Source: Allacma fusca (Eukaryota; Arthropoda; Collembola; Symphypleona; Sminthuridae). Taken from it: a DNA stretch of 64,000 bases. A model generated the notes under the pieces. The model had not been told where the DNA came from and made no database searches. It was given only the letters and a program-made list of their open reading frames with translations. Positions 9,932 to 61,671 of this stretch are shown in pieces. Position 1 is the first letter of the stretch, and each line of letters begins with the position of its first letter. The DNA is taken from the NCBI GenBank assembly GCA_947179485.1, contig OX359249.1:2976001-3040000 (forward strand), given 5' to 3'. A program made the position numbers and the translations under genes.

Positions 9932-12900
9932 ATGGCGAATACCCAGAAAAGAATTATAATGCCGCCACTCTGCTTGCCGCCAGGGTGTCCACCTCCATGT
10001 TGTCTGCCGCAGTGTTGCCCTCCTCAATGTTGTCCGCCTCAGTGCTGCCCTCCTCAATGTTGTCAGCCTCAATGTTGTCCGCCCCAGTGCTGCCCTCCAC
10101 AATACTGTCCGCCACAGTGCTGCCCTCCGTGTTTCCCACCACAATGTTGTCAACCGCCAGGCTGTCCATCGCCACCATGTTGTCCCAAGGGCCCGTGCTG
10201 TCCACCCCCACCACCCTGCTGTCCACCTCCCTGTTGTCCTCCAAGCTGCGACCCTTGCAAGTCAAAGTGTGGTTGTTGTGGGGGAAGAAATACGATAATT
10301 TGTGTACCGAAGTAAAGAACAAATTAGCATTGTAAACCATTTCTTCCAACTGTTTAAATAACCAGTAGCCATTGCTAAACCAAATATATTAAAGATATTT
10401 GATTTTGCGGTACTTCCAGAGGTTGCCCACCACCATGCTGTAACCCATGCTGCTCACCATGTTGCTCTCCGTGCTGTCCTCCCTGTTGCTGCTGTCCCTC
10501 GCCATGTTGTAACCCTTGCGACCCCTGTTGTTCGGACAAGCCCGCTTCCTTTAACAACTGCAACTTTTACTGTTCTGAACTGCCGAAAGGTTTCGGAGCA
10601 AATGGCGGATGCAATAACTTCTACAAACATCCGTGCTGCCCTCCAACAGATGATTGTTGCCCACCTGACGACTGTTGTCCACCTGACGACTTCTGCCCTC
10701 CAACCCCACCTTTTTGCAGCGGAAATAACCGCGCCGCAGGAGATGATCAGATGGCTCCAGTTCCCAGAAGAGATCGCAAGCCTGGGAGGAAGGGAAGAAC
10801 AAGCGGTTGGCATTCCCGTCAAAGAAGTCCTTATGGTCAGTCCAGATCACCCACCCCCTATAGGCACCACTCCTTATGTAACCCCTACTACGGAGAGCCA
10901 GGGTTGGGCAAGGTTTGCAAAGGTGCGTCCGGTAGCGGCCCCATCTATAATGAAATTAGTCACAGGAACATGTCAGAGCGGTCGTCTCCAAGTTTCACAA
11001 AATCTAGGAGCGGTCACCGACATTCCGGGCATAGGAAAAATGGTCATAGGTTTTCGAAAAGGAAATCTAAAGAACTGAAAGAAATGATAGAAGACTTCTG
11101 TAACGAGTCAGTATCTGGAAGACTAGCACTCCCACAGACCAAAAGCGCGGGGCAGTGCACCTCTCCAGAGCGCACGGCAGTGCGTAGTGCAGGTGTGGAA
11201 GCGCGTTTGTCAGAGCATTTAGAATGCATGAAGTGGACAGATGGAGCTTCAACTCCTTTGAAAATAACAGGCAAAGGTCAAAAATCGCACAGTAAATCAA
11301 AACATGACCCGTACGCGTGTCAGAAACTAAAATCCCCGCTTCAGATAAAAATCATTGGGACACATGGTGATGGATCAGAAATAAAAAGATTGCAAATAAA
11401 AACTATTGAGCGCTTGGTCTTTCCAGTGCGCAGGGGACGGAGCACAGCTCGAAAACATATGCGTGACTATGGACAAAAACTAGACTGCAGCACAAGAGAT
11501 GACGATGCTAAGCAATCAAGTTCAAGATCGGATTATAAAGACAGGCAAAAGCTACCCCATTCAGAGCCTTGTCCAGGAAATTTAGCGCTACTTGAATGCC
11601 TGCCAGAAATGACTGCAAAGAAAGAAACCCCAGTTAGTACGCTTCAGTTATTTGGACCACATTGCCCCCAAACAGCCAGTAGCTTCATGGTTAGCTTACC
11701 CGTGACAGTGACACCTGGTGGCGATGGCCTTACCCATGCTCGAAGTGCCGATGGTCGTCTGGATAAGAAATCATCTATTATTAGAAGAGCTCGGTCATTT
11801 GAGTCCGTTAGACAAATCGAAAATTTTTATAGATTAATTAAACGCGAAAGTAAGATTCCCCCGAAAACGGCAGCTGACTGTAGCATGGAGAAGTCTCTTA
11901 AACCGATTTACCAGACCATGAAAAATTCAAGAATCGATAAGATTATTCAGCAACAATTCTGCGTCATGACGGTGCAAATCGACAAGCCCAAATCAAAAAA
12001 ACAGACCACAAATCCGAATCCAGTCATTACGGTTCCCCCAGTATCTGGAACAGCACCTGAAAATATTAGCAACAGATCAGAAAATGCTAACCCTCTAATT
12101 CTAAGAAATACGGATCGATACATTAATGATTCCATACCATCAAATCAAGAGAGGGAAAGTAAACTTCAGACACCAGTGGGTAATCCCAGCCCTTTCGGGA
12201 GAGGTATCACTTCTGGCTTGGACTCGAATTCGTCAACCCCTAATGTTTCTCCCTCATGGGAATCCTATCCATTCAAATACCAAGATGATGACGATGGAGC
12301 TAAATTTTTTCCTAAATATGACTACGGAGTCACTGGATCACCTTCCCCCACACCATCTTCAATTCAGCAGTATCGTTGTAAATCTCGCAACCAAGCTAAT
12401 AATAAGCATCAGACCAAAACGGAGTCAACTTCTGATAATTATCCTGAAAGTACAAGTAATACACCTACAAAGCCCCTGACCGTTAATAATGATCCCCCAG
12501 TTAGTTCCAGGAGGCCAGGGACCTACGTTTTAAATGAAACAGAATCTTTTCTTTCCACCGAACAGAAATTATACGAGTCATTCAAAAATACATCAACAAA
12601 AAATGATGACCCATATATTAAAACTACTAATACTGGAAGTACTGTCCCTAGCACGACTTATGCAAAATTTAAGCCTCCAAAATCTGCCAGGCTGAAAATC
12701 GCCCCACCGCGACCACCACCCCCAATGTTACCAAGATATAATACTAATCTTCAGCTTAATAGACCTGATTCAAATGTCAACAGAAATGACCCGCAAAATA
12801 ACGATACTTTGCCAACCATTAATAATCATCTCGAGTCTGAATTTAGATACCCCGAAATTAGTAGACAGTACCTTCAAAGTGAGAACCGATTGCCACAAAT

Positions 12901-13768
12901 TAACACTCAGCCCATAATAAACTATTCGACAGTCAACTCCTACCAAGCTGACCAAAATTCCGTTGGTAGCAGGCTTCCCCCAATAACTTCTCCCAATACA
13001 TCTTACCCTACTTCCACTGCGAATCCTAATTTTCTCAACTCATATCCTTATGTTCCACCCTATCAGTTTACAATGAGTAGCTCTTCTGGGAGCCCGCAAT
13101 CGTTCTCTATAAATACCTCCAGCGGAGACCCCCAATCGTACGCTATAAATACCTCCAGCGGAAACCCGCAATCGTACCCTACAACTACCTCCAGCGGAAA
13201 CCCTCAATCGTACCCTACAACTACCTACACCGGGAACACCCAAGAGTATTCTACAAATAGCTCCAGTTGGAGCACCCAAGAGTATTCTATAGATAACTCC
13301 AGCGGAAATCCCCAACAGTATTCTACAAGTTACTCCAGCGGAAAACCCCAACCGTATTCTACAAGTTACTCCAGTGGGAACAATGGTACGATGTTTCCAC
13401 CAATAACTCCGCCGCAACCCCCGACCATAATTAAAGTGGTTCACTACTCCGACTGCTGTTCACCATGCAATACTGCCCTGCCCTGTACACCTTGTCCACA
13501 ACCCTGCTTGATCTGCCGACCCGTTTCAAGACGATGCAGAAGAAAGCGGAAATGTAAACGGCGAGCCCCACGTTGTGCGGACTGTTGTAGTGTATGTAAA
13601 TGCTGTGGTTGTGTACCCTGTTGTTGCTCCAAATGCGAAGAACCACCTTTCCCCCAATTACCCATCCGAAAAGTTTCTTGCTGTATTCCTGACCCTTGCT
13701 GCAGAAGTAGCTGCTGCTGCTGCTGCTGCGACTGTGATTGTTGCTGCGATCAGGATTGCAACGTTTGA
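9932..13768 (+). CDS. Cys/Pro-rich basic protein of unknown function, two exons (predicted 1242 aa)
   Basis: I do not recognise this gene. Exon 1 (9932-10311) encodes about 126 residues dominated by CCPPQ repeats. The GTAAAG donor at 10312 and the acceptor TACTTCCAG ending at 10419 define a 108-bp intron that joins exon 2 (10420-13768) in phase (2+1 nt, giving Lys). Exon 2 opens with a second Cys block (CCNPCC, CCSPCC and DDCCPPDD units). A long basic, Ser/Arg/Lys-rich and then Asn/Pro/Ser-rich low-complexity region follows. About eight 12-residue repeats of the type SSGNPQSY lie at 13078-13380. The C-terminus is a third dense block with a basic patch (SRRCRRKRK) and runs of Cys. There is no signal peptide and no transmembrane segment. 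Similar compositions occur in disulfide-rich structural proteins (sperm, cuticle, keratin-associated type), but that is analogy only. The two exons could be separate paralogous genes; the phase match and short intron favour one gene. Confidence 0.7.
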
Positions 13769-30790: not shown

Positions 30791-31039
30791 TTCAAGTTCT
30801 GGAAGATAGGAAAAATGGCAGGTGAATCTGATAAGCTGATAATTATTCCAAATTCAATTTATGTCATCAAAATCAACCACGGTTACGCGACACCTATTTG
30901 ACCTTTCAGAAATTGGCATGTATGCTAACTGGGGAAAAATTTCAGATGTAGCTGCTAGCGTTAACCGTATAGGTCATACAGCTGCATTGTTTTCACGCGA
31001 TGTGCAGGGTATGAAGTAAGGATTGATAATACCGCATTA

Positions 31040-31460
31040 GGGACTGTGTACTAATGACGTCATACATTTAAGGGGAGGGGGAGTAGCAGAATGAGTGACT
31101 TCGGGTGACAGGAGGAGGGGAGGGGCGAGTGGTGTCTGACGTCATACAAAAATAACGAGGGTTTTTTGTACTACATAAAAGCAGTAATCTTAGATATTTT
31201 AGAATTCAGTTACAACAAATCATTTTGATGGCTTTCACAGACATCGGAATCCAACCACACAATATGCACAAATTATTAATATTTTACTAAATCCCGCTTT
31301 AATCAAGGATGCAGTCTTTATTGTATTAATGAATACATGAGTATTACACATGACGTCAGATGGTGGGGGTGGGGTTGACAGAATATGATTTGATGTGATT
31401 TTGGGGGAGGGGGTGTTCAAAAGAGGGCAATTTGGAGTGACGTCATTAGTACACAGTCCC
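31040..31460. mobile_element. PIF/Harbinger-like MITE, family H1, copy 1 (421 bp)
   Basis: The terminal inverted repeats begin GGGACTGTGTACTAATGACG and end in the exact complement (...TAGTACACAGTCCC). The element is flanked on both sides by TTA (31037-31039 and 31461-31463), the TWA-type 3-bp duplication typical of PIF/Harbinger elements. Internal sequence has GGGGAGGGGG stretches near both ends and no transposase. A second copy of identical length lies at 40778-41198. Confidence 0.88.
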
Positions 31461-32137
31461 TTAGCCAATATTAGGGGCAATGATAAAAAACTATGTATAT
31501 TATTCCTCTGCTTCATCTTGTTACTGAAAAACTTTGAAGGTAATGGAAAGTGGAGCAACTAGATTGTTTTGAAAAGATCAAACTTTGGATGTTCTAAATT
31601 GTTTACTCAAGCTTGAAAATTTATTTCAAAATATATTTTGATGTTTTGGTGGCAAATTTTATGGGCTTGCAAGGCAGCTATCATACAGTTTTATTCGTTG
31701 AAAATGGTGGACATGAAACGTTAAACCCGAGAACAACGTTGGGAAAATTCACCTTTAGATGCAAAGATGGGAGAGAGGAGAGGTTCTGATCTGGCCAAAT
31801 TTTCGTAGACGGTCTGTCAGTTATATAAATATTTCATAACGTTGGGGTTGTACAAAATTTCATGAGAACCTATTTGAGCCTAATATGATCGTCCCCAATC
31901 AACAATTACGGTATCCCGCAAAGGTGTCCGCCTATCCTACATATAGGCCTATTTGTAGGCTATTTATAGGCTGCGAGGATTTTATTAAAGAGGCTTGTAG
32001 GCACTAGGCACAATAGGGTGCAAGAGTTTACGCTAAAAGCTTAGCCTACAAAATAGGTACGCTAAGGCATCGTAGAATTATAAGCATATATGTAGGCTAT
32101 TGATACATGTCATTTTCATTTAATGGTATATGGAACG

Positions 32138-32436
32138 AATTGTGATTTTTGGTGGTGGAGAGAGAACTTCAGTCTGGGAGAGATGCTTTTCAACTAATTA
32201 ATGTTTTATTCAGAGTCATTGGTATTTATACATTTTCAAATTACATGTTCATGAATGTGGGTACTTAAGTCAATAGTATGAGTCCCTGTGACATCAAAAC
32301 ATGTTTTGATGTAGGCCTTATCATGTTATTCGATTACTCATGTGTACTTAGCTTACATGTGAACTTCATGCGATTCAACTATTGAGATTACACGTACACA
32401 ATATACAAAATAAGGCATGGGGCCCTTATTACAACA
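32138..32436 (-). repeat. 3' LTR of the copia-type element (299 bp)
   Basis: On the element's strand it starts TGTTGTAATAAGG and ends TCACAATT. It lacks a 5-bp AGGAC present in the 5' LTR and differs from it at about three further positions. Confidence 0.92.
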
Positions 32437-32454
32437 CTCTCCCTTAATCTCAAT
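32437..32454 (-). other. Polypurine tract
   Basis: On the element strand, AGATTAAGGGAGAG lies directly upstream of the TGTTG start of the 3' LTR, the expected place for the plus-strand primer. Confidence 0.75.
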
Positions 32455-32483
32455 CTACATACATTTTATGAAACATAAAACAC

Positions 32484-34043
32484 TTATGCTTGATCAATGG
32501 TAACCAATGGGATTGCAGTAGTTGTGGTCAGGATAACTCGACGTTTGAGTATGACGAACAGGCTAAGGATTCCCAGTAACACGGCAAGGGTTGCTCCTAC
32601 ACCGATGACGGACCATTGGATTGTCTCTAGGCTGCTTTCCGGGTTGGTGGCAGGAATAGGGCTTTCCACGCTGTCTCGGAGATTCTTCCAGTCTATTGAG
32701 GGGTGAAGGTGCCAATTCATTCTGACAGTAAACATCGGGTCCAGAGTCTCTTTGTGGGTAAGACTCATGGCGACTCCTTCAAAATCCATGTTATTTAGTT
32801 TGAAGCTTGCTGTTAGGGGCAAAGTGAAGACTTCAGAGGGACACGGAGTTGGTTCCCGGTTCTTCAGGGTGTAATTTGAATCAGCACAATAGATGTAGTA
32901 CATACCATTGTACGGGTTGATCTGAACGAATTCGTTTTGATCATTTTGATATGTCTTCTGGCATCTTGAGATAGAAAAATATCTTCCACGCTTGCTGAAA
33001 CTGGCTCCTGGTTTACATCCGGTGAATGGGGAAGTAACAAGATTCTGTGAAATATGTTGCCTAACGTTGATCCCATACAGGCAATCTTCAGATTCTGACA
33101 CTATGGCGTTGATGGGACCATTGTATTTAACTAGACACGTCTTGTTCTTTTCTCTTAACATGAGGTCGAATGGGTCGGCTTCTACGACAATCAGTGATTT
33201 ACTGACTGTAGGGGCCAAGAAATCCAAAAATATCTTGGTTCGGTCATGTAACATTCTACATCCTTTCGGTTGAGCAAATTGGATGGGACAATTATCTCCG
33301 CATGGCATACTGAAGTTGAGGTAGTCAAGAAATGCTCTAGACAATTTCCCCTGGTTCCATTGGCGATTTGTTTCTTTCAAGGTGGATCGTCCTAGTAATA
33401 ACCTGCTCGTTATATACGATATGGCGTAATTCAACTCTATGCTCTGGGATTTGAAAGATTTTAGATCTTCTTGGACAACTTCCATGGTTTTCACAGCTTC
33501 TCGGAAACTGTTTTGGAGACGAAGGATGTTTGCAGTGTTGTTCTTTACTTTTGCTTCCAGTTCATCTAGCTTTCCTTCGATTTGCTGTTGCGTTTTTGTA
33601 ATCTCCTTGATCTCTCCTTTATTTGTGGAAGCCATGGCAACACCAGCAATGCCAATCCCGGCGCTTACAACGATTGCACCAATTAGTAGTGTAATCAGTG
33701 TGATAGGCTCACGCTTTTTTCGTTGAATTTCAGACCATTCTTTTCGGACGCACATTTTCTCAAGCTCATTTAGGAAATATTCATTATACAGTTTTTCACA
33801 TTTTGCTCGGGCTGTAGCAAGAAGGGGCGTATTCGGGCCTCCGGATGATATTAACTCGCATGGTGACACAAACGAGATGAGCAGGTTAACGCTGTTGTAA
33901 CCTGTGGTGACCGGCAGTGGACTTTTCCTCCACAGAACATTGCTTGGGGTCCTTTCGATTCGGGCTGAACTGTCACAGCACAGGGTTAGTATCGTGAGTG
34001 CTGCTAACATAACTGCATTGATTCCTTTTATAGGATGTCCTTT
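32484..34043 (-). CDS. Envelope-like class I fusion-type glycoprotein region
   Basis: Numbering follows the 887-codon frame. A leader-like hydrophobic stretch with Met380 spans 375-391, followed by a short N-terminal subunit (about 396-479) with several Cys. RKKR at 476-479 (33711-33722) is a furin-type cleavage site. It is followed by a 27-residue Ala/Gly/Ile-rich hydrophobic segment (481-507) resembling a fusion peptide, then a heptad-patterned helix (about 509-575). A Cys-rich ectodomain follows (Cys at 616, 620, 630, 671, 689, 711, 729, 754 and 769; N-glycosylation sequons at 536, 611, 668 and 758). A transmembrane segment (846-867) and a 20-residue tail complete it. Architecture matches F-type or retroviral-type class I fusion proteins. 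The family of origin cannot be told by eye. No stops or frame breaks were found. Confidence 0.82.
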   Translation of the reverse strand, partial: KGHPIKGINAVMLAALTILTLCCDSSARIERTPSNVLWRKSPLPVTTGYNSVNLLISFVSPCELISSGGPNTPLLATARAKCEKLYNEYFLNELEKMCVRKEWSEIQRKKREPITLITLLIGAIVVSAGIGIAGVAMASTNKGEIKEITKTQQQIEGKLDELEAKVKNNTANILRLQNSFREAVKTMEVVQEDLKSFKSQSIELNYAISYITSRLLLGRSTLKETNRQWNQGKLSRAFLDYLNFSMPCGDNCPIQFAQPKGCRMLHDRTKIFLDFLAPTVSKSLIVVEADPFDLMLREKNKTCLVKYNGPINAIVSESEDCLYGINVRQHISQNLVTSPFTGCKPGASFSKRGRYFSISRCQKTYQNDQNEFVQINPYNGMYYIYCADSNYTLKNREPTPCPSEVFTLPLTASFKLNNMDFEGVAMSLTHKETLDPMFTVRMNWHLHPSIDWKNLRDSVESPIPATNPESSLETIQWSVIGVGATLAVLLGILSLFVILKRRVILTTTTAIPLVTIDQA

Positions 34044-35147
34044 TGGCTCAACTGATATTTTTTGCTTCTTGTGTTGAACGTCATTTGATGTTTTAATCTG
34101 GGAAGGTTGATCGTTTCGTAACTTCATCTTCTTTGGAGGTGGGTCCTCTCTTGAATCTTCAGAAACCGCAGAGGTCGTAAGGGACATTCCTATTTTCCTC
34201 ATGCTGTCTTCAAACTTGGTCTTGGGAAGTGGCTTAGTCAAACCATCTGCTGCTTGATCCTCAGTTGGAGTATACTTAATTGCAATTTCTCCATTTTCTA
34301 CTTGTGTTCGGGAGAAATGGTATTTAACATCGATGTGTTTGGTTCTTTTGTGCATTTCAGGATTTTTCACTAAACGGATAGCACTCTGGTTATCTACTTC
34401 GAGCAGGGTTGGTTCTCTTTGGGGATTTGAGAGTTCCTTCAGAAATCTTCTTAGCCAAACTGTTTCCCTTGCTGCAGACGCCAGAGCTATATATTCTGCC
34501 TCGGTGGATGATATAGCCACGCATGATTGTTTTTGGCTGCACCAGCTGATTGGGGTTTCGTTTAACTTGAAGAGAAATCCAGTTGTCGATTTTCTTTCTT
34601 CCTCATCGCCGGCGTAGTCTGAGTCACTGTGGCCGGTGAGGATGCAAACTTTATTTCTTGTGAAAGTGAGTCCAATGTTGGGGGTACCTTTAAGATATCT
34701 GAGAATTTCTTTTGCTGCCTTCCAGTGTGATGCATCGTAGCACGTCAAATATCGTGACAGTTTCGACACGGCAAACGCAATGTCTGGTTTTGTAACTCGG
34801 GCTAGGAACAGTAGCGCACCAATGAGTTCTCGATAGGGTAGGTTGGTGACTGAATTCTGGGCTGGTTGTAAGTTCACGTACGGTTGCATGGGTACACTTG
34901 CTGTTTTGCAGTCTTCCATCTTGAATTCTTGCACGAGTCGATGAATGTAGTGTTCTTGTGAAAGTGTGATGGATCCAGAATTGTTTCTTCGAATTTCAAT
35001 TCCAACGTATTCATCTGGGTCATTAATTTTTATATCAAATTGCTTCTTCATCATCTGTAGGAGATACTCAATGGATTCTAAGCAGGGTGAGACGATTAGT
35101 CCATCGTCGACGTAGAGAGAGAGATGCACTTTATGGTTCCTTATCAT
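32484..35147 (-). CDS. Pol C-terminus (RT end, RNase H) continuous with env-like glycoprotein, 887 codons
   Basis: One uninterrupted frame. Residues 1-110 are the end of the reverse transcriptase with YVDD at 12-15. Residues about 160-300 are the copia RNase H (D175/D177, E216 in STEAEY, D252). After residue 320 the copia polyprotein would normally end. Here a basic linker (326-372) leads into a hydrophobic leader (375-391) and an ectodomain. The frame continues upstream across an in-frame stop at 35313-35315 into the rest of RT. Which ATG is used in life is unknown; the first Met of the open frame is not a biological start. The env part could be made by cleavage of a Pol-Env precursor or from a spliced RNA. 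Confidence 0.88.
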   Translation of the reverse strand: MIRNHKVHLSLYVDDGLIVSPCLESIEYLLQMMKKQFDIKINDPDEYVGIEIRRNNSGSITLSQEHYIHRLVQEFKMEDCKTASVPMQPYVNLQPAQNSVTNLPYRELIGALLFLARVTKPDIAFAVSKLSRYLTCYDASHWKAAKEILRYLKGTPNIGLTFTRNKVCILTGHSDSDYAGDEEERKSTTGFLFKLNETPISWCSQKQSCVAISSTEAEYIALASAARETVWLRRFLKELSNPQREPTLLEVDNQSAIRLVKNPEMHKRTKHIDVKYHFSRTQVENGEIAIKYTPTEDQAADGLTKPLPKTKFEDSMRKIGMSLTTSAVSEDSREDPPPKKMKLRNDQPSQIKTSNDVQHKKQKISVEPKGHPIKGINAVMLAALTILTLCCDSSARIERTPSNVLWRKSPLPVTTGYNSVNLLISFVSPCELISSGGPNTPLLATARAKCEKLYNEYFLNELEKMCVRKEWSEIQRKKREPITLITLLIGAIVVSAGIGIAGVAMASTNKGEIKEITKTQQQIEGKLDELEAKVKNNTANILRLQNSFREAVKTMEVVQEDLKSFKSQSIELNYAISYITSRLLLGRSTLKETNRQWNQGKLSRAFLDYLNFSMPCGDNCPIQFAQPKGCRMLHDRTKIFLDFLAPTVSKSLIVVEADPFDLMLREKNKTCLVKYNGPINAIVSESEDCLYGINVRQHISQNLVTSPFTGCKPGASFSKRGRYFSISRCQKTYQNDQNEFVQINPYNGMYYIYCADSNYTLKNREPTPCPSEVFTLPLTASFKLNNMDFEGVAMSLTHKETLDPMFTVRMNWHLHPSIDWKNLRDSVESPIPATNPESSLETIQWSVIGVGATLAVLLGILSLFVILKRRVILTTTTAIPLVTIDQA

Positions 35148-35312
35148 ACCAGTGTAGACGCTGGGATCGCTTGCAATTTTCTTCAGTTGAACACTGGCTA
35201 GAAATTCGCTGAATCGCTTGTACCAACATCGTGGGGCTTGTTTGAGTCCATAAATGCTTCTGTTGAGTCGGCAGACTGATTCCTTGTCTTGATTCTGAAA
35301 TCCATCAGGTTG

Positions 35313-35690
35313 TTATATGTAAAGAACTTCTTCCAGTTTTCCATGGAGAAATGCGGTCTTGATATCAAACTGTTTTATGTGCATTTGCTTTATGGCAGCT
35401 AATCCAATCAGCATCCTAATCGACTCGTAGCGGCATACGGAAGAGAAGGTTTCTCCATAATCCATTCCTCTTTGTTGCTTGTAGCCTTTGACTACTAGTC
35501 TTGCTTTGAATCGGTCTACAGATCCATCTGGGTTTCTCTTCAGTTTGAATACCCATCGGTTTCCAAGTATCTTCACGTTGGCAGGTCTCTTTACAACAGT
35601 CCAAGTATTGTTGATGAGATGGCTCTCCAGTTCCTCTTTTATGGCTTGTTTCCACTCTTGATGCTCGTTAGAGGTAGTCGCTTCTTTATA
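35313..35690 (-). pseudogene. Reverse transcriptase N-terminal half (copia), ends at a premature stop
   Basis: It contains the copia RT signature stretch NRWVFKLKRNPDGS, then FKARLVVKGYKQ, ETFSSV and FDIKTAFLHGKL (first catalytic Asp). A TAA at 35313-35315 interrupts it exactly where copia RTs read E-Q-P-x-G-F; QPDGF follows directly in the same frame. A frame change separates it from the upstream linker near 35650-35700. Confidence 0.85.
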
Positions 35691-35986
35691 TTTTTTGGGT
35701 TCTTCAAGCAGAATGTTGACTTTTCCAAAAAATGCGCCTTCTTTCGTTCTCGAAGACGGCTTTCAAGAACTTCGGGTTGAAAAAATGCTGAAGGCTTCTT
35801 TTTGGGTGCTCTCTTGGTTGGGATTTTAAACGGTGAAGTGGATGAAAAAGGATCAAGTTTGTATCGAAAGGTTCCGTCTGGGGTTTGTAACGTTAACTTA
35901 TTTTTATCTGAGCTAGAACTCGTGCCAGGTCTGGGGTCTTCATTTTTCTCTCCGTCAGTAATTGATCCATCTGCATGAAGATTCAA
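35639..35986 (-). pseudogene. Integrase-RT linker segment of copia Pol
   Basis: This is an acidic and then Lys/Pro-rich linker with no catalytic motif, in a different frame from both neighbours. The frame break at its 5' side coincides with a small local duplication: the sequence encoding SYSVTED occurs twice between 35990 and 36065. Confidence 0.7.
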
Positions 35987-36750
35987 GATGTCGTCATCGT
36001 CTTCGGTAACTGAATAGCTGAGAAGCTGAGATGACCGTCTTCGTCTTCTGTAACTGAATAGCTGGGATCGCTGTCATCATCTCCGGAATCTTCGCTAGGA
36101 GGTTCTTGTGGCTTTGCAACTTCTTCTTTAGACTTGAATACTGGGTCGTCTTCTTCATGGAAGTTTACATTTCGGGCTTCGATGATCTTGCCACTGTCTT
36201 CATTATACAGACGAAATTTTCTAGTGACATGGGGGTCATATCCTACTAAAATCAATGTTTCTCCTTTTGGTTGAAAACCTGATCTCTTGATTCGAGGGAT
36301 TTGTAAGTAAGCAGTGCACCCGAACTTTCGGATGTGCTCCAACGTGGGTTTTTTCTTAAAGATGATTTCATATGGGGTGATTTCAGGACATTGGCTGCTT
36401 AGTAGGCGATTAAAAATGTAAACAGCCGTGGCCACCGCTTCCCCCCAAAGTTTATCTTCACAATTTGCATCGTTGAGCATTGTCCTAACGCTGTCTTTGA
36501 CTGTTCTGATTTCGCGTTCAATTCTTCCATTGGTCTCCGGACAGTATGCAGCGCTGGTTTCGTGTACAATTCCTTTTTCTTCAAAAAACGTCTTCGTTTC
36601 ATTGTTGATGATTTCAGTCCCGTTGTCACTTCTTACAAATTTGGTCTTTCTTCCTGTTTGGGTAGCCATGAACGTCACATAGTTTTGAATACATTTCTTC
36701 GCTTTATCTTTCGTTCTTAATGGGTACTGTTCTGAGTCCGGTTGCATCAT
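35983..36750 (-). pseudogene. Integrase catalytic core, second part (copia)
   Basis: It carries the second catalytic Asp in VRSDNGTE, the catalytic Glu in NGRIERE, and the downstream copia-specific GYDPHVTRKFRLYN region (GKGYRLY-type motif). It overlaps the previous frame between 36704 and 36750, which locates a frameshift just after the first integrase Asp. Confidence 0.88.
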
Positions 36751-37669
36751 CCTTGAACAACAAGAAATAGATGGCTCCGCTTAGAGATGGCGTGGGCACT
36801 GGTCCAGCGAGATCCACGTGGAACATTTCTACGGGCTTCATGTTTCTTCTGGTAGATGAGGTGGGGAATGAATTCCTTGTTGCCTTTCCAAGATGACATG
36901 GTTCACAATGAAATGTATCATCCAGTTCATTCTCTTTGATTCCTCGTGCAGCTCCTTTGCGAATTGTATTCTTCAGATACTTGATGTTGACATGAGCAAG
37001 GCGTTCATGCCATAGTTTGGCATTTGCTGCTTTTGCAGCGGTAGGGATCCGTCGGAACTGCATGGAGTAGCTCCGATCTTGGTATTTTGCTGTAAGGGTC
37101 AGTTTCCTCATGTCGTCGTCTTCGTAGAAACGAGTTTCCTTTGCGTTTCGTATAATCGTGAAACCTTTTTGGGCTAGAACGACTTCTGAAAAGAGATTTG
37201 CTGCACCCTTTACGTACAGGACTTCAAATAAATTGATAGGCATCCATTGGTTCTTCATAAACGCTTCCAATTCGATTCTTCCTGTTCCTTTTGCTAAGGC
37301 AGTTTTACCATCGGCAAGTTCGACCTTCTTCGGGGTTGGGAAATCTTCATATTCGGAGAACCATGTAAGGTCTCCACACATGTGCTGTGTAGCTCCGGAA
37401 TCACTTGTCCATTTTTCTTTGGTCCCTGTGTGTTCCTCTTGTTTTCCCATGAAGGCCCTTGGGGTGTCATCACGGCTGTCTTCTTTGTTCGGATTCGAGT
37501 CCTTCTTCTTGCTTCTGCATTCCCGCTTCCAATGTCCAAGCTTACCACAGTTGTGGCATTTGGTCTTTTTCTTTAATGCGTTGATTTTCGTAGTCTTGCT
37601 GCTTCCATCAGACTTCTCAGGTTGTCTGTAGTTACTTCTTGATTGGAACGCCTTAGTAATCTGCTGATA
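36704..37669 (-). pseudogene. Zinc knuckle, aspartic protease and integrase N-terminus (copia)
   Basis: In order on the minus strand: a CCHC knuckle (C-HNC-GKLGH-WKRE-C, about 37512-37553), a protease active site WTSDSGATQH (about 37400), the HHCC zinc-binding domain (LWHERLAH, then CEPCHLGK), and the first integrase Asp in FHVDLAGP. It is in the same frame as gag, separated from it only by a TAA at 37670-37672. Readthrough or a late mutation are both possible. Confidence 0.88.
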
Positions 37670-38263
37670 TTATTCGGCGGGTGCATTTGGTCTTGAAAGT
37701 TCCAGTTTCTTGAGTCTTGCCAGGAGGTTACTCATCGTTTGTGCTTGGTGATCGACACTGTCCCATGCGTCCTTGAAACTTTGATACTTCTCTTCGGGAA
37801 GGCTTTCTACAATTTTCGTTACAATAGAAAGTTCCCCCATAGGAATTCCCATTGCTTCCAAACTTCTTGCGAGGTCTTCAATCTCCACGTAAACTTGTAC
37901 CAAGGATTGAGATTTCGAGATTTTATAGTTATAAAATCTTGCCATGGTCTGCTGGATGTTGAGTTGACTGGTGTCCGAATTTAGACTCGTCAATTTTTCG
38001 TAGATGTCTCTTGACGTCTGGCATCGATGGACGTGAATTAGTTGCGATTTGCTGAGGCTGAGAAGCAAAATGGCTTTTGCTTCATTATCTAGCTTGTCCC
38101 ACTCGGCTTGTCTTGCTGGTTCGGCTGCGTCCCGTTGGGTGTTCCCGCTGACCACATCATAAACTCCAGCGGCTCTTAGAACGACCATGATTTGCATGTT
38201 CCATAGAGAGTAGTTCGTGTCGTCTAGCTTCAGCATAGATCCATATTCCAGTTTCTTCGCCAT
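37670..38263 (-). CDS. Gag (copia UBN2 type), 197 codons
   Basis: The N-terminus LDDTNYSLWNMQIMVVLRA matches the copia-type Gag start (L-x-G-x-N-Y-x-x-W). It is followed by WDKLDNEAKAILLLSLS and later FYNYKISKSQSLVQVY, as in UBN2-family Gags that form the particle shell. Start ATG at 38263 follows the tandem-repeat leader. The frame stops before its own zinc knuckle, which lies further on in the same frame (see next segment), so Gag here is shortened unless the stop is bypassed. Confidence 0.88.
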   Translation of the reverse strand: MAKKLEYGSMLKLDDTNYSLWNMQIMVVLRAAGVYDVVSGNTQRDAAEPARQAEWDKLDNEAKAILLLSLSKSQLIHVHRCQTSRDIYEKLTSLNSDTSQLNIQQTMARFYNYKISKSQSLVQVYVEIEDLARSLEAMGIPMGELSIVTKIVESLPEEKYQSFKDAWDSVDHQAQTMSNLLARLKKLELSRPNAPAE

Positions 38264-38289
38264 TTCTTCGGTATGATTTCTTCAATCTT

Positions 38290-38985
38290 CCTTCTGGGAT
38301 GGTTCCTCTGCTAGACTTGACAATGTTTCGTGATCGGTTGGCTTGAATTGCTAGCGTGACTTCGGCGGTCCTCTGCTAGGTTTGACAATGTTTCGTGATC
38401 GGTTGGCTTGAATTACTAGCGTGACTTCGGCGGTCCTCTGCTAGGCTTGACAGTTTAGAGATCGGTTGTCTTGAATTACTAGCGTGACTTCGGCGGTCTT
38501 CTGCTAGGCTTGACAGTTTTGTGATCCGTTGGCTTGAATTACTAGCGTGACTTCGGCGGTCCTCTGCTAGGCTTGACAGTTTTGTGATCCGTTGGCTTGA
38601 ATTACTAGCGTGACTTCGGCGGTCCTCTGCTAGGCTTGACAGTTTTGTGATCGGTTGGCTAGCGTGACTTCGGCGGTCCTCTGCTAGGCTTGACAGATTT
38701 GTGATAGGTTGGCTTGAATTACCAGCGTGACTTCGGCGGTCCTCTGCTAGGCTTGAAAGATTTCTCCAGGACTGATCGGCTAACTTGACGTCTGTTCCAG
38801 GGTTACTCGGCTAGTTTAGTGTCTTCTCCAGGATGCTTGGTTTCTGCTCCGGGGATGATCGGCTAGCTTGATGTCTTCTCCAGGATGCTTGGTTTCTGCT
38901 CCGGGGTTGATCGGCTAGCTTGATGTCTTCTCCAGGATGCTTGGTTTCTGCTCCGGGGTTGATCGGCTAGCTTGATATCTTCTCC
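38290..38985. repeat. Tandem repeats in the leader of the copia-type element
   Basis: Two arrays stand side by side. At about 38300-38755, six to seven copies of a roughly 60-bp unit contain GCGTGACTTCGGCGGTCCTC and TGCTAGGCTTGACAG. At about 38790-38985, three to four copies of a 54-bp unit contain GATCGGCTAGCTTGATGTC and CTCCAGGATGCTTGG. They lie between the 5' LTR and the gag start, where packaging signals are expected in retroelements. Confidence 0.88.
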
Positions 38986-39162
38986 AGGATGCTCGTCTTC
39001 TGGTCCAGGGATGATCGGCCAACTTGTCTGCTCAAGGGTTGTTCGTGCTAGCTTGACTTCTTCTGCTGGGCTGCTTCTCCAGGGCTCTTTTTGCAAGCTT
39101 GATTTCTTCTCCAGGACTTCTTCTCCAAGGCTCAGGCTCCAGGGCTGCTCGTTTTGATAACG

Positions 39163-39466
39163 AATTGTGATTTTTGGTGGTGGAGAGAGAACTTCAGTCT
39201 GGGAGAGATGCTTTTCAACTAATTAATGTTTTATTCAGAGTCATTGGTATTTATACATTTTCAAATTACATGTTCATTAATGTGGGTACTTAAGTCAATA
39301 GTATGAGTCCCTGTGACATCAAAACATGTTTTGATGTAGGCCAGGACTTATCATGTTATTCGATTACTCATGTGTACTTAGCTTACATGTGAACTTCATG
39401 TGATTCAACTATTGAGATTACACGTACACAATATACAAAATAAGGCATGGAGCCCTTATTACAACA
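39163..39466 (-). repeat. 5' LTR of the copia-type element (304 bp)
   Basis: It pairs with 32138-32436. The inner side is followed on the element strand by CGTTATCAAAACGAGC, where the primer-binding site should be. I could not match it to a specific tRNA by eye; copia-type elements often use an internal tRNA segment. Confidence 0.92.
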
Positions 39467-39929
39467 GAACGGCCAAATGAAAATTAAAGAATAATCCGCG
39501 ACTGGTACTTGCAGATTGTATGATTCATGGTGCGGTTCAAGCATGAAAAGTCTACTATATATATATGAGATAGTGACTATATATACTAGTCACTATCTCA
39601 CCTTAATATGCGCTAGAACTTCACCAAAATTAAAACTTCAAAATACTTGGTAAAGTGGAAACTGTATAAACTCGACCACTGAAACGAAAAAATGCGCTTG
39701 AACACAATTCAAATTTCAAACAGGATTTACTGAGATATGTTGGTGTAGAATTAGAGTAGAACGCCCTTAAATAGTCTGTCAGTAACGAAAAGCATATAAA
39801 ATGTAGGAAGGGTGTAGAATTGGTTGATCTAATTTGCCAATGAAATGTAGGCTAATATGTAGGCTTGGTGCTCCCCATATAGGAAGGATGTAGGATAGGC
39901 TGAGCCATTTGGACACCTTTGGTCTCCCG

Positions 39930-40777
39930 AATTGAAGATGTAAAATTGTTTCAAAAAAGCTTTTTCCTTTGTTTCATTCTTGCTTCATATTTTCAATAAT
40001 GAATTCCCCATACATTGCTGTCTGTTTGTGCGTTTCATGTCATGGCCACAATGCTCAAGATAGGAACTTCCTAAAAGTCCCATAAACTTTCAAAATTTAC
40101 TTTTTCCTTTGTCCGACTTTTTGCCTATGATATATACGAAGTTTTTGGAATAGTGAGATGAACTGTGGTAAAATGTTGAAACAATTCATAACAGAATTGA
40201 TTTTTTTACCATTGCCCCTTAAATGGGCTGGAGTATGAGCAAATTGTATCTTGGTACCTTTCACTGAACAATAGCACAGGAAGTGCTATTGTCTCATCCT
40301 ACACTACCCTAAAGTCCAGTTATTTTCAAAGAAATGAATAGTAAATCACTTTAATACATCAAATTGTGAGGTTAGATGAGGTTTTTTACATGCATGAATA
40401 AATCTTGCAATGATTTGGGAGCCTACAATTTTGCTCGTCAGGATCTGGCAGCTTTTTGCATACTACGTAATTATATAAAATCGAATATTCACATTGTATT
40501 TTAGGTTTAAAGCTGATGTTTCAAGCTTAGTAGAATTTTGTTCACTTGAATTAATTCACTATTATAAATCATGAACCATAATTATTTATTTTACGATGAT
40601 CTGCTACAGAGTCAGGATAATGACTTTGGAACCTGAATAATTCTTCCAGATGAGGTTCATAAACCTCTGAGTCTCCTTGAGTTTATAAATATTGTACCAA
40701 AACCCACTGTACCGCCAATTATGGCCAAAAAGCGCAGGGGTAAACCAAGCACGAGACGAGTCAAGCATTTCACATTG
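39930..40777. other. No gene recognised
   Basis: AT-rich sequence between family A and the second H1 element. No repeats or domain-bearing frames stand out. Confidence 0.4.
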
Positions 40778-41198
40778 GGGACTGTGTGCTACTGACGTCA
40801 TACATTTAGGGGGAGGGGGAGTAGCAGAATGAGTGACTTCGGGTGACAGGAGGAGGGGAGGGGCAATTGTTGTCTGACGTCATACAAAAATAAGGATGGT
40901 TTATTGTACTACGTCAAAGCAGTAATCTTAGATATTTTAGAATTCAGTTGCAACAAATCGATTTGATGGCTTTCACAGACATCGGAATCCAGCCACACAA
41001 TATGCACAAATTATTAATATTTTACTAAATCCCGCTTTAATCAAGGATGCAGTCTTTATTGTATTAATGAATACATGAGTATTACACATGACGTCAGATG
41101 GTGGGGGTGGGGTTGACAGAATATGATTTGATGTGATTTTGGGGGAGGGGGTGTTCAAAAGTGGGCAATTTGGAGTGACTTCATTAGTACACAGTCCC
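40778..41198. mobile_element. PIF/Harbinger-like MITE, family H1, copy 2 (421 bp)
   Basis: It has the same length and nearly the same sequence as the copy at 31040. The left end GGGACTGTGTGCTACTGACG differs at two bases. Flanking TTG (40775-40777 and 41199-41201) is a 3-bp duplication that deviates from TWA. Confidence 0.87.
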
Positions 41199-41201
41199 TT
41201 G

Positions 41202-57307: not shown

Positions 57308-60300
57308 ATGCAAGCGTTGAAATTGAAGCGAGGAACTCTCAAGTCGAGCTTAACCAAGCTCAAGAACACTGTAGATGGCTACACGGACGCCATTAATCAA
57401 GGATACGTGGAAGCTCACCAGAGACGCCTGGACGGCTTATGGGCGGAGCTACAGAAAAACCACGATGAAATCATCGCAGCTAGCGCTGATGACAATGAGC
57501 GGGACGCTCACCAATTAGACTTCGATGAGGTCGATAGCAAGGTAATGGAAATTCAGTGTTCATTGAATAATGCTATGCTACTACTGACACGACCTCCGAC
57601 ATCTTGTCAGAACACTTCTGCACAGACTCAGGATCTTCTCACGCCTAATTTGTCAGTCAATCTTCCCAAGTTATCCATTCCCACATACTCCGGGGAAGTT
57701 CATGAATGGCTTGGCTTTAGTGACATGTTCACTACAATGGTTCACAACAACCAAACGCTACAGGATGTGAACCGCTTCCAGTATTTGAAGCTTGCTTTGA
57801 GGGGAGATGCTGCTCGCCACTTGAATTCCATCCCCGTAACTAATGCAAACTACCAGAAAGCTTGGGATATGCTTGAAGCTAGGTTCTCTCATGAACGAGT
57901 TATGGTATTCTCGCACCTGGACCGCCTGTTTAACAATCAATCTCTCCCTCAAGAGTCTGCTGTCGGTCTGAGGAAGCTCATTGACAACACAATGGAATCA
58001 GTTCGAGCTTTGGAAAATTTAAAGCGTGACACTGGTCACTGGGATGATATTCTTGTGTATGTGACAATGCAAAAATTGGATCCCGAAACTCGTCGAAGGA
58101 TTGAACTTTCATTAACTGACAAGAAGGTACCTGCGTTTGATCAGCTAATGATTTTGCTTGAACAACATTCAATTGCTCTGGACACCATGTCTAACTCCAA
58201 GGGGAAGGGAAATTCTGCAAATGACTCTCCTAAGAAATTCTTCGGCATGAATGAGAAGCCAAGACCTGCTCCAGGAAATGTCAAAAGCCATGTTGTTTCA
58301 GCTCAAGACAAGAATCAATGCAGCTTTTGCTCAGAGAGTCACAATATTTTTCAATGTCCAATTTTCAATGGGAAATCTATACCCGAACGGCTGCAAACAG
58401 CTAAGGAGAAAAAGCTTTGCCTCAACTGTCTAAGGACCGGCCATTTTGTGTCCTCTTGTCCCTCAACTTTTGTCTGTCGCGTGTGCAAACAGAAACATCA
58501 CTCTCTTCTTCACCAAATTCAGAGTAGTGACAGTGTAGTAGTTACTAACCACGCTAGTAATGACGCAAGACCTGCAACTCAAGTCCTCCTTGGTACCGCT
58601 GTTGTACACGCAAATGACCATCACGGAGCTTTACAAACTTGCAGGGTACTATTAGACACGGGATCACAGGTCAGTTTTATAACCTCCGCCTGTGTGAATC
58701 GGCTTGGGCTCCGACTTGAAGCCACTTTCTGCCAGGTAACGGGCATTGCATCTTGCGGAGGACCCACTGCGGATAGTCAAGTCAATGTCCAGCTTGTATC
58801 GCGCTTTGAAGAAGCCACATTCGCTGTCACCGCTCTTGTGGTAAAGCAAGTCACTGGTAACCTACCAACATTTTCATGCGACCCCAAGATATGGAAGCAT
58901 CTAAATGGGCTTAGATTGGCCGACCCAATGTTTCATAAGCCTGGATGTGTAGATATACTTCTGGGAGCTGACATTCTACCTGAAATTCAACGAGCAAATC
59001 TCGTTCGTGGTGAGAAAAACACACCAACTGCCCAAGAGACTGCCTTTGGTTGGGTTATATATGGTCCAGCATCTGTCAACCGTGAACCTCAGGTCTTCAC
59101 CCACGTCGCTCAATTTAATTTAGAGTCCACACTACAACGATTCTGGGAAATCGAGGAAATCTCGGAGAGCAGAAAGCTTACTGGGGAGGAGAAGGCTTGT
59201 GAAACTCACTTCGCAGAGACACATGTCCGTAACTTAGATGGAAGTTACACGGTACGACTTCCATTCAAAGAGAAGACCGAGTCACTTGGGAACTCCTATA
59301 ATGCAGCCTTACGGAGGTTCACACAGCTTGAACGCAGGCTTCAGTCAAACGCTCAACTACACCAGCAATACTCCGATTTTATGGACGAGTATCTTGCCAT
59401 GGGACATATGGAGCTTGTGCCTGACAGTGAGTTGGAGAAAGATACGAGCAAGTGCTACTATCTCCCACATCATGCTGTCATAAAGGAGGATAGTACCACG
59501 ACAAAACTTCGAGTCGTATTTGATGCTTCTGCAAAGACGACTACAGGGATCTCACTAAATAGCCTGCTGATGGTAGGTCCCACCCTTCAGGATGATTTAT
59601 TTTCCTTGCTTGTGCGCTTCAGAAGTCACGCTATTGCTCTAAAGGCCGATCTGGAGAAAATGTTTCGGTTCATCCAGCTGGATCACCGCGACAGGGATTA
59701 CTTCCGTATATTCTGGAGGGAGAAACCAGATTGTCCACTCCAAGTATATCGCCTTACAACAGTGACGTTTGGATCTTCATGCGCTCCCTATCAGGCTGTG
59801 AAGACAGTTAGACAGCTTGCATCTGACGAGATGCAGAACTTCCCTGAGGCCTGTACAATCATACTAAGGGATCTCTATGTAGACGATTTAATGAGCGGGG
59901 CATCATCGGAAGACCAAGCCATAGACCTACAGAAAGGTATAGTAGCTGTAATGAAAACGGGGAAATTTAACATTCGTAAATGGTCTTCAAACAGTAACAA
60001 GGTACTTGAAAACATTCCTATCGAACTCCGTGAAACCCAGCATCCACTAAAACTCGACCCCGATGAAACAGTGAAGACGTTGGGTCTAAAATGGCACCCA
60101 GCTCTGGATTCATTCTCATTCTCAGTTCAACCATTCTCTCAGGAAATTCTAACCAAACGAATTATTCTGTCGGATATCGCTAAGCTCTTTGATCCGCTTG
60201 GACTGTTGGCTCCAGTGACCATCACTGCCAAACTATTTATGCAGCAGCTCTGGAAGGTAGATTTGGGTTGGGATCAAGCTCTACCACTACAACTCTCAGA

Positions 60301-60478
60301 ATCTTGGTTGTCGTTCCGAAACTCACTCCACAAAATCCAATCTATACAAATACCCCGGTACATTGGAAGTTGTAAGGCACGAAACTTCCAACTGCATGGT
60401 TTCTCGGATGCATCGGAGAAAGCTATTTCAGCGGTTGTATACCTTCGAACTTCCTCAGCAGCAGGCAATATAACTTGC
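57308..60478 (+). CDS. BEL/Pao retrotransposon Gag-Pol, 3' part lost in an assembly gap
   Basis: One open frame of about 1057 codons before the gap. Residues 1-100 are a helical Gag N-terminus. At about 115-265 is the DUF1759-type Gag domain (LPKLSIPTYSGEVHEW, later YLKLALRGDAARHLNSIP). From about 337, Cys/His knuckles of the BEL type (CSFC.., then LCLNCLRTGHFVSSC and CRVCKQKHHSLLH). At about 447 the aspartic protease VLLDTGSQVSF. RT begins about 730 (VVFDASAKT), with LKADLEKMFRFIQL and YVDD at about 856. RNase H begins with GFSDASEKA at about 1031. Integrase and the 3' LTR are absent. No stop or frameshift is seen up to the gap, so the element may be recent. The ATG at 57308 follows the LTR/leader region. 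Confidence 0.93.
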
Positions 60479-60480
60479 AA

Positions 60481-60680
60481 NNNNNNNNNNNNNNNNNNNN
60501 NNNNNNNNNNNNNNNNNNNNNNNNNNNNNNNNNNNNNNNNNNNNNNNNNNNNNNNNNNNNNNNNNNNNNNNNNNNNNNNNNNNNNNNNNNNNNNNNNNNN
60601 NNNNNNNNNNNNNNNNNNNNNNNNNNNNNNNNNNNNNNNNNNNNNNNNNNNNNNNNNNNNNNNNNNNNNNNNNNNNNNNN
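60481..60680. other. Assembly gap (200 N)
   Basis: A run of exactly 200 N, a typical placeholder. Any open frame that crosses it is artificial. Confidence 0.99.
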
Positions 60681-60873
60681 ATTTTCTCAGCAATAGTACA
60701 CTGTACAGGAATTTTTTCCGGTCCCGATCTATTTTTCGGTCCCAAAATTCTCGGGACAAAAATGTGCGTCCTCACTCCGTCCCGAAAAAACATGAGGACA
60801 AACATTTTGTCCCGAAACTTTCCCGATCCAGTCCCGAAAAACTCGGGACGTCCCGTCCCGAACAGAAGCACTA
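60681..60873. mobile_element. Right end of a hAT-like element with CGGGAC words
   Basis: TTTCGGTCCC, CTCGGGAC and GTCCCGAAA words recur. The sequence ends ...CGTCCCGTCCCGAACAGAAG CACTA, whose complement begins TAGTGCTTCTGTTCGGGACG, a TAGTG hAT-like tip. The left part lies in the gap. It is the same word family as 48884-49256. BEL coding sequence does not resume after it. Confidence 0.7.
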
Positions 60874-61671
60874 GAATGAAGGTTGTTCTAATAATTCTAA
60901 AAATTGACCTTTAAAATCATACAGAACGAAAATTCAATTTGAACAAATGTGATTCTAAGGAAATAAATTAAAACGTTAAAATGTTAAGTATTTCTGTTAA
61001 TATATAAATGCCTTCTTAGAAATGGGAAATATTTTTTTCAAACAATGAGTGTATGAGTTTTTTCACGTAAATCCGAATAGGAAGGCCAAAAAACCGAGAT
61101 AATCCGAAAAATTACAGTAATTTATTGTAGCCGTATCAATTTGAATATTAGAATATGAGCTATCTCAAAGATGAATAGCTGCTGCACTCATCATTTTTTC
61201 CCCATCCTGGAATCAAAACTTCGGATTTTTTAGAAAAATCACATGCACATTTTTGAAACTGCGGGATTTTTTTTTGACTGCAAGCACGTTCAAATCTATA
61301 CTTTTTTAAATATCTCAACTCAAGGCAAGCATAAACACTACATTATAAAATTTTGAAAAAGTGCAGATTTGAACGTGCCGGCAGTCAAATCGGGAGAAAT
61401 CCGAAACGGGTAATTTATATACATAGCTACGTCAGGCGTTGTGCTCATTTTACGTTGTTATGTATGACGCAAGGATTTGTATGCGTGTACATACAGCCAG
61501 CATGCAAGCATTGCTTGCTCCCTGTACGTTCAATTGTTTTAATTGTTTAATTTTGAACGTTTTTTCGTACTGTTCAAAATTACAATACCAGTGACTGACA
61601 TACAAATACCAATAACCTTTAATCCTACTAGATGCAGTAAAACAAATGCATGAAGTTTTGCTACTCCACGT
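60874..61671. other. Non-coding, with a 38-bp inverted repeat
   Basis: TTGACTGCAAGCACGTTCAA (about 61275) and its inverted counterpart TTGAACGTGCCGGCAGTCAA (about 61367-61386), each extended by a few bases, form arms around about 50 bp. Possibly a short MITE relic. No gene. Confidence 0.5.

Follow-up and report, generated by a model that had tools for sequence, protein, structure and literature searches.

Can an animal retrotransposon of the copia type carry a viral envelope glycoprotein (Env) in one frame with its own polymerase? The question is raised by a stretch of 64,000 nt from the springtail Allacma fusca (contig OX359249.1, positions 2,976,001 to 3,040,000), hereafter the window, in which positions 32138-39466 of the minus strand are a copia-type long terminal repeat (LTR) element. 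The passage from retrotransposon to retrovirus hinges on the capture of an Env, a step documented for animal gypsy-type and BEL/Pao elements, while plant copia elements have an env-like gene of unproven role. We consider, with a probability of roughly 0.77, that a springtail lineage of Pseudoviridae acquired, most simply once, a viral class I fusion glycoprotein of F type, placed behind its ribonuclease H (RNase H).

The finding concerns a frame of 887 codons (the table below gives all coordinates). Precisely, this frame has the YVDD motif of reverse transcriptase (RT) at residues 12-15, the motif DGLTKP at the end of RNase H at residues 301-306, a hydrophobic leader at residues 379-391 and the basic site RKKR at residues 476-479, and from residue 395 on it contains 12 ectodomain cysteines (Cys) and four N-glycosylation sequons. 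The Env part has the features of an F-type class I protein, namely a signal peptide, a basic cleavage site, a hydrophobic fusion peptide and an anchor, which were assigned by sequence pattern and hydropathy only. An earlier note on this DNA had described the same order of parts (YVDD, RNase H, leader, RKKR, hydrophobic segment, helix, Cys-rich ectodomain, anchor); we found all of them present, and its coordinates for the element were exact to the base.

We assigned the element to Ty1/copia (Pseudoviridae) on the basis of a copia-type gag, an integrase located 5′ of RT, an RVT_2 domain, LTRs and a short target duplication. On the minus strand the SH3-like domain of the integrase is within 35983-36750 and RT runs from 35723 downwards, so that the order seen in errantiviruses and other Metaviridae (RT upstream of integrase) does not apply. 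The LTRs of the window copy differ at 3 of 299 aligned sites, besides one 5-bp gap, and are therefore about 99% identical. Gag (PF14223), the integrase before RT, RVT_2, RNase H, the LTRs and a duplication of 5 bp are shared with the animal Ty1/copia elements; the difference is the Env that follows RNase H in frame, whereas the env-less protein P0022, for example, ends shortly past RNase H.

The gag-pol of the window copy is broken. Because of two in-frame stops (after gag and within RT) and two frame changes, one near 36725 and the other between about 36124 and 35723, this copy is unable to make a full gag-pol. Since the 887-codon frame opens past the last break, it has only the C-terminal part of RT; RVT_2 was accordingly found in two pieces (E 6.1e-26 at 35313-35576 and 4.8e-13 in the 887-codon frame). 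The integrase core PF00665 was below the cut-off in the window copy (22.2 vs 32.6 bits).

We searched the whole assembly (392,743,791 bases in 91 contigs) for further copies. With the DNA of the env region there were five matches at four places: the window, C1 (98% identity), C8 (97%) and a second C5 place about 53 kb off (two pieces, of 93% and 91%). C1 retains the 887 codons in full, without a single indel or stop. In the C8 copy there are 4 indels and 3 stops within the aligned codons, and the second C5 copy, which contains several indels, stops and an insertion of 436 bases, is degenerate. The LTR pairs differ at 2 of 296 aligned sites in C1 and at 4 of 304 in C8, and the flanking 5-bp repeats, read by eye, are TCTTC and AATTC, respectively; the boundary of C1 was also set by eye, since its LTR end is altered.

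As an approach that does not presuppose env, we also searched the genome by the RT/RNase H region and obtained at least 13 loci, window included, a lower bound because the search scores the best candidates only. The Env profile matched 12 of the 13, and in 11 of these 12 env-bearing loci (L010, which is the window, L011, L012, L014, L015, L017, L018, L019, L020, L021 and L022) a single stop-free frame leads from the last part of RNase H into the beginning of Env. Whether the join is conserved among genomic copies had been named in the earlier note as a check, and copies that end at RNase H with no env as a reason to give up its claim; the join proved conserved, and no such copy was found among the 13 loci, L016 being uninformative because its match ends inside RNase H. 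A single frame runs from near the start of the RT/RNase H profile to near the end of Env in 6 of the 13 (L010, L011, L014, L018, L021, L022), and in the remaining loci RT/RNase H or Env is interrupted elsewhere by stops or frame changes. The degenerate C5 copy corresponds to L013.

At an Env identity of ≤60% the loci fall into seven groups (the window family, L014, L015, L017, L018/L019/L021, L020 and L022), L012 and L013 having been placed by DNA identity and not by Env identity. In the 11 joined loci, between 39 and 99 codons separate the RNase H motif from Env, which is always in frame, so that changes in length have kept the frame. Env reaches a stop in the downstream pieces of seven loci, and in 7/7 of them a hydrophobic window of 19 residues (mean hydropathy 2.0-3.2) is located near its end, 19 residues before the stop in L017 and 72 in L020, versus 38-54 in the others.

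The same arrangement is present in other springtails. When 7995 candidate proteins were scored with the env part alone, five proteins were found, all with E ≤ 1e-90, and a search by the env alignment added just one, a record of Allacma fusca of 198 residues that is 99% identical to the window frame over the matched part. This record shifts frame just behind RKKRE, where the C8 copy has an insertion. With the whole frame, 491 proteins out of the same number scored had E ≤ 1e-10, and env was present in 12 of the best 120 of them (P0008-P0019); the env profile was positive for 19 of the 127 proteins collected, including that of the window. The organism is named for 6 of the 18 env-bearing relatives, and all are springtails: Allacma fusca (3), Folsomia candida (2) and Orchesella dallaii (1). 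That the last species is a springtail is taken from the title of PMC12693562 (papers cited here by PMC number are represented by excerpts). The protein P0020, from Populus alba, was a pol-only match, and among the hits in IMG/VR and in prokaryote genomes, which were short patterns only, no relative of Env was confirmed.

In all aligned rows that reach them, window included, the 12 Cys are kept, except for one position at 15/16, and K-R (R-R in P0011) precedes the hydrophobic run in 16/16 rows. In a quick RT/RNase H tree of 121 rows, made without bootstrap and without gypsy, BEL or Sirevirus reference rows, the window element groups within the copia matches, and the 13 env-bearing rows that extend into this region form one clade together with P0021 (Shimodaira-Hasegawa-like approximate likelihood ratio test support 100). 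The P0021 record (508 residues) breaks off at roughly the expected place of the signal peptide, and we judged it to be truncated rather than env-less. A tree of Env (17 rows) agrees with that of Pol on the sets P0012-P0014 and P0008/P0011. The trees differ in that P0017 sits with P0008/P0011 and P0009 pairs with P0016 only in the Pol tree, and in that P0018 is beside the window for Pol and beside P0002 for Env; the discordant branches of the Pol tree have support of 84-93 and are not starred. Pol and Env have therefore travelled together at least in part. A single gain of Env is probably the simplest account of the springtail lineage, and Env may also have been exchanged between lineages. Two records deserve mention on their own: P0019 and L015 seem to belong to a single family, and P0018, an annotated partial protein of Allacma fusca, spans gag into Env and skips most of RT, perhaps because of a false intron in the annotation.

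Env is under purifying selection. Between the window and C1 we counted 13 synonymous and 13 non-synonymous changes in Env (ratio of non-synonymous to synonymous rates, dN/dS, 0.29; P 0.002 versus neutrality) and 6 and 15 in Pol (0.71; P 0.31); at slightly different limits the ratios were 0.23 and 0.66, respectively. Between L018 and L021 there were 44 and 23 changes in Env (dN/dS 0.14, P 6e-14) and 43 and 11 in Pol (0.06). For Env, the ratio was 0.12 between L019 and L021 and 0.5, with hardly any changes, between L018 and L019, and synonymous sites were saturated in most other pairs of loci. All P values for selection derive from a simple binomial count that ignores transition bias. The low dN/dS indicates that Env was kept as a working protein while the families spread.

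Concerning the fold, we used a monomer model of Env of moderate confidence (predicted local distance difference test, pLDDT, 74); a first model from 6 sequences (pLDDT 50) was not used. With Foldseek the model matched the F protein of human parainfluenza virus 3 (2.0e-9), the glycoprotein of Canya virus (1.9e-11) and a baculovirus F (1.1e-10), and two structural comparisons, the second of which re-aligns the candidates of the first, gave only paramyxovirus/pneumovirus F proteins among the 50 rows shown for each. Other matches were an abalone herpesvirus protein (rank 3, 1.2e-10), chu-related glycoproteins (rank 11, 2.3e-8), a torovirus S protein and the Env of walleye retrovirus and of foamy virus. 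We also considered a chuvirus or a phlebovirus as the source of Env and did not favour either, because the top structural matches are F-type. The springtail Env has the order of F2, cleavage site, fusion peptide, long helix, Cys domain, stalk and anchor in common with the fusion glycoproteins of paramyxoviruses, pneumoviruses, lispiviruses and baculoviruses, and its model resembles them in fold; it differs from them in being the tail of a reverse-transcribing element and in its sequence, the structural alignments with F proteins having 5-13% identity and low TM-scores.

The Env part had no Pfam match above cut-off, and the window protein no match to PF00523 (Fusion_gly); the best match to this family, a precomputed one in P0017, was below the curated cut-off (24.7 vs 29.8 bits), and we rejected it as decisive support for this reason. 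A search of the PDB with a single env protein gave nothing significant, and with the env alignment the F protein of human metapneumovirus appeared at E 0.01 alongside coiled-coil proteins, a weak match. In NCBIfam there were weak matches to unrelated families, mostly coiled-coil ones for the window protein. The search against viral glycoprotein profiles proposed in the earlier note was thus negative in Pfam above cut-off, and the monomer model resembled F-type proteins. That an animal copia lineage captured an env, as the note had supposed, agrees with the conserved join, the selection, the F-type pattern and the resemblance in fold.

As to how Env is expressed, we lean slightly towards a Gag-Pol-Env polyprotein that has Env at its C-terminus. 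In this case, the internal signal peptide would direct Env into the endoplasmic reticulum, signal peptidase would release it from Pol, a furin-type protease would cut at the K/R-R site so that the fusion peptide is exposed, and the anchored Env, presumably as a trimer, would let particles fuse with another cell and so be infectious. We favour a tail of Pol because the linkers stay in frame and stop-free and because some of them have no methionine (Met): taking as signal core the most hydrophobic 12 residues, the stretch from RNase H to this core has no Met in 3 of the 15 fused protein records and in 3 of 11 loci (L015, L017, L020), so that a private start codon of Env is not conserved. Many env-bearing elements, errantiviruses and retroviruses among them, obtain Env from a spliced RNA, and the alternative here, which we hold to be rather doubtful, is that Env is translated from such an RNA and that the unbroken frame from Pol to Env is inherited or yields a minor product only. 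A spliced Env has been predicted for the plant elements BAGY2 and Athila (PMC2829016). Several observations weigh against our account, and we give them beside the explanations that they favour. In 8 of the 11 loci the stretch from RNase H to the signal core has one Met or more. The amino acids of the linker show no constraint beyond staying open: upstream of the signal core there were 3 synonymous and 6 non-synonymous changes between L018 and L021 (P 0.30) and 4 and 18 between L020 and L022 (P 0.77). Linker and signal peptide together had 9 and 9 changes in the first pair (P 0.008), 9 and 8 between L019 and L021 (not independent of the first pair) and 19 and 28 between L020 and L022 (P 0.015), while the changes in the two young pairs from the window family (0 and 1, 0 and 4) were too few to tell. 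We ascribed this synonymous bias to the signal peptide, because it is gone once the signal peptide is left out, and for the same reason we dropped linker constraint as a proof of the polyprotein; a constrained signal peptide would be needed by a spliced Env too. Moreover, the 15 fused records, window included, in which RNase H and Env are 42-132 codons apart, agree with an unbroken frame and are a biased sample, since they show one frame only and some of them are gene models. A purely spliced Env would, on the other hand, have no need of linkers that are open and in frame in 11 of 12 env-bearing loci, in seven groups that are mutually saturated at synonymous sites in most pairs. Three of these groups have no Met in the linker.

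It is unlikely, in our opinion, that the C-terminal part is a host or other membrane protein, e.g. an adhesin, that mimics a fusogen by its coiled coil and anchor. The missing Pfam match, the coiled-coil proteins among the weak PDB sequence matches and the low TM-scores would all be expected of such a protein; it would not be expected to have a basic site directly before a hydrophobic run in every row and 12 conserved Cys, nor to match paramyxovirus/pneumovirus F proteins in all the rows shown. We also considered that a copia element was inserted by chance beside an unrelated env remnant, or that the assembly is at fault, and we ruled this out as hardly conceivable: Env is inside the LTR pair, and the same join is repeated at 10 further loci, which contradicts an artefact, and in two other springtail genera. 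The capture of an F-type Env by a springtail copia lineage is the reading that we retain. We propose only tentatively the wider one, that a retrovirus-like life arose independently in animal Pseudoviridae, in a long-lived springtail lineage with an F-type fusogen as the tail of one Gag-Pol-Env polyprotein, the lineage still spreading, or having recently spread, from cell to cell or from one individual to another.

Among known systems, the plant Sireviruses also have an env-like part behind a copia pol. The stop between pol and the env-like part of SIRE1 has no counterpart in the stop-free springtail loci, and the host is an animal and the Env F-type, Sirevirus ENV sequences being outside this comparison. 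Errantiviruses (gypsy-type, Metaviridae) are LTR elements with an envelope gene, likely of baculovirus origin (PMC12440569), and a baculovirus F is among the structural matches of the springtail Env. The springtail element differs from them in its copia-type pol, in the integrase before RT and in the Env fused in frame. Capture of a glycoprotein of negative-strand RNA viruses by an LTR element is also known in the BEL/Pao superfamily, to which we take Anakin to belong. The Troyka paper lists Errantivirus and Anakin as env captures (PMC12440569), and a mosquito Pao element has captured a chuvirus glycoprotein (PMC10084718). These elements are not copia and their captured protein is of another type, termed a type III fusion glycoprotein in PMC13172572; according to the excerpts of PMC10084718 there is no clear capture of a Jingchuvirales glycoprotein by Gypsy or Copia. 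The 'Spiretroviruses' are likewise chimeric, retrovirus-like sequences with a spike-type protein, here a nidovirus-like Spike; they were found by a nidovirus Spike screen, and the excerpts of PMC11071296 give neither their pol type nor a link to copia.

If our reading is true, a third large superfamily of LTR elements also took the step of Env capture, with an F-type protein, and an Env that rides on the Pol frame would perhaps make a separate env message needless. The conserved join suggests that animal copia elements, too, stepped towards retroviruses. Folsomia candida is a springtail kept in culture, and its relatives of the lineage make expression and processing open to direct study. What seems new here is the capture of env in animal copia elements and the stop-free Pol-Env frame, env capture itself being known. 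We recognised no earlier report of an env-bearing animal copia element in searches of an open-access library, a scope that leaves aside most subscription journals, preprints and repeat databases. Such an element is unmentioned in the excerpts of the papers on Kuafuorterviruses (PMC11673190), on insect PIWI-interacting RNAs (PMC13172572) and on the Orchesella dallaii genome (PMC12693562) and of a preprint on horizontal gene transfer (PMC11071296); in the text available of the paper on crustacean GalEa elements (PMC3587641) 'envelope' occurs 0 times and the matches to 'env' are 'environment'.

Table. Parts of the copia-type element and its target-site duplication, in window coordinates.
Feature	Position	Strand	Remarks
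Target-site duplication GAACG, right copy	39467..39471
5′ LTR	39163..39466	−	97% identity to 3′ LTR across 308 columns including the 5-bp gap
Leader with tandem repeats (units 63-65 bp and 52 bp)	38304..39043	−	between 5′ LTR and gag
Gag (Retrotran_gag_2, PF14223, E 1.8e-25)	37670..38263	−	closed by in-frame stop 37672-37670
Pol_BBD, GAG-pre-integrase and integrase start	36704..37450	−	frame shared with gag
Integrase core and SH3-like domain (6.1e-21)	35983..36750	−	other frame, change near 36725
N-terminal RT	35313..35723	−	in frame of the 887-codon open reading frame; stop 35315-35313
887-codon frame: C-terminal RT (YVDD), RNase H, linker, Env	35147..32484	−
RNase H region, end after DGLTKPLPK	34173..34655	−	limits by hand from homology range and motif
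Basic Pol-Env linker, stop-free	34020..34172	−
Internal signal-peptide-like hydrophobic core	33969..34019	−
F2-like subunit, RKKR (33711-33722) at its end	33711..33968	−
Fusion-peptide-like hydrophobic segment	33630..33710	−
Long helix, like heptad repeat 1 (HR1)	33354..33569	−	model H134-205
Cys-rich beta domain with 9 of the 12 conserved Cys	32778..33302	−
C-terminal membrane anchor, then 18-residue tail	32541..32642	−	model H443-476
3′ LTR	32138..32436	−	starts TGTTGT on element strand
Target-site duplication GAACG, left copy	32133..32137

The bases just after the 5′ LTR (CGTTATCA...ACGAG, about 39141-39162), when reverse-complemented, presumably resemble the anticodon arm of tRNA-Ile, as would be expected if priming were copia-style, by an internal tRNA piece. 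A putative tRNA-Ile-like stretch is present at the same place after the 5′ LTR in L007 and L009.

On both sides the copia insertion is flanked by a direct repeat of 428 bp (31035-31462 and 40773-41200, 95.8% identical), and an older element, some 2.4 kb long, may therefore have been the target of the insertion. The window contains a second LTR element, with a BEL/Pao polyprotein frame of 1188 residues on the plus strand (57308-60874; DUF1759, Peptidase_A17, RVT_1). An open frame of 1005 residues (10751-13768, plus strand), without a Pfam match at 0.01, lies in a comparatively G+C-rich stretch and overlaps a frame of 158 residues at 10602-11078.

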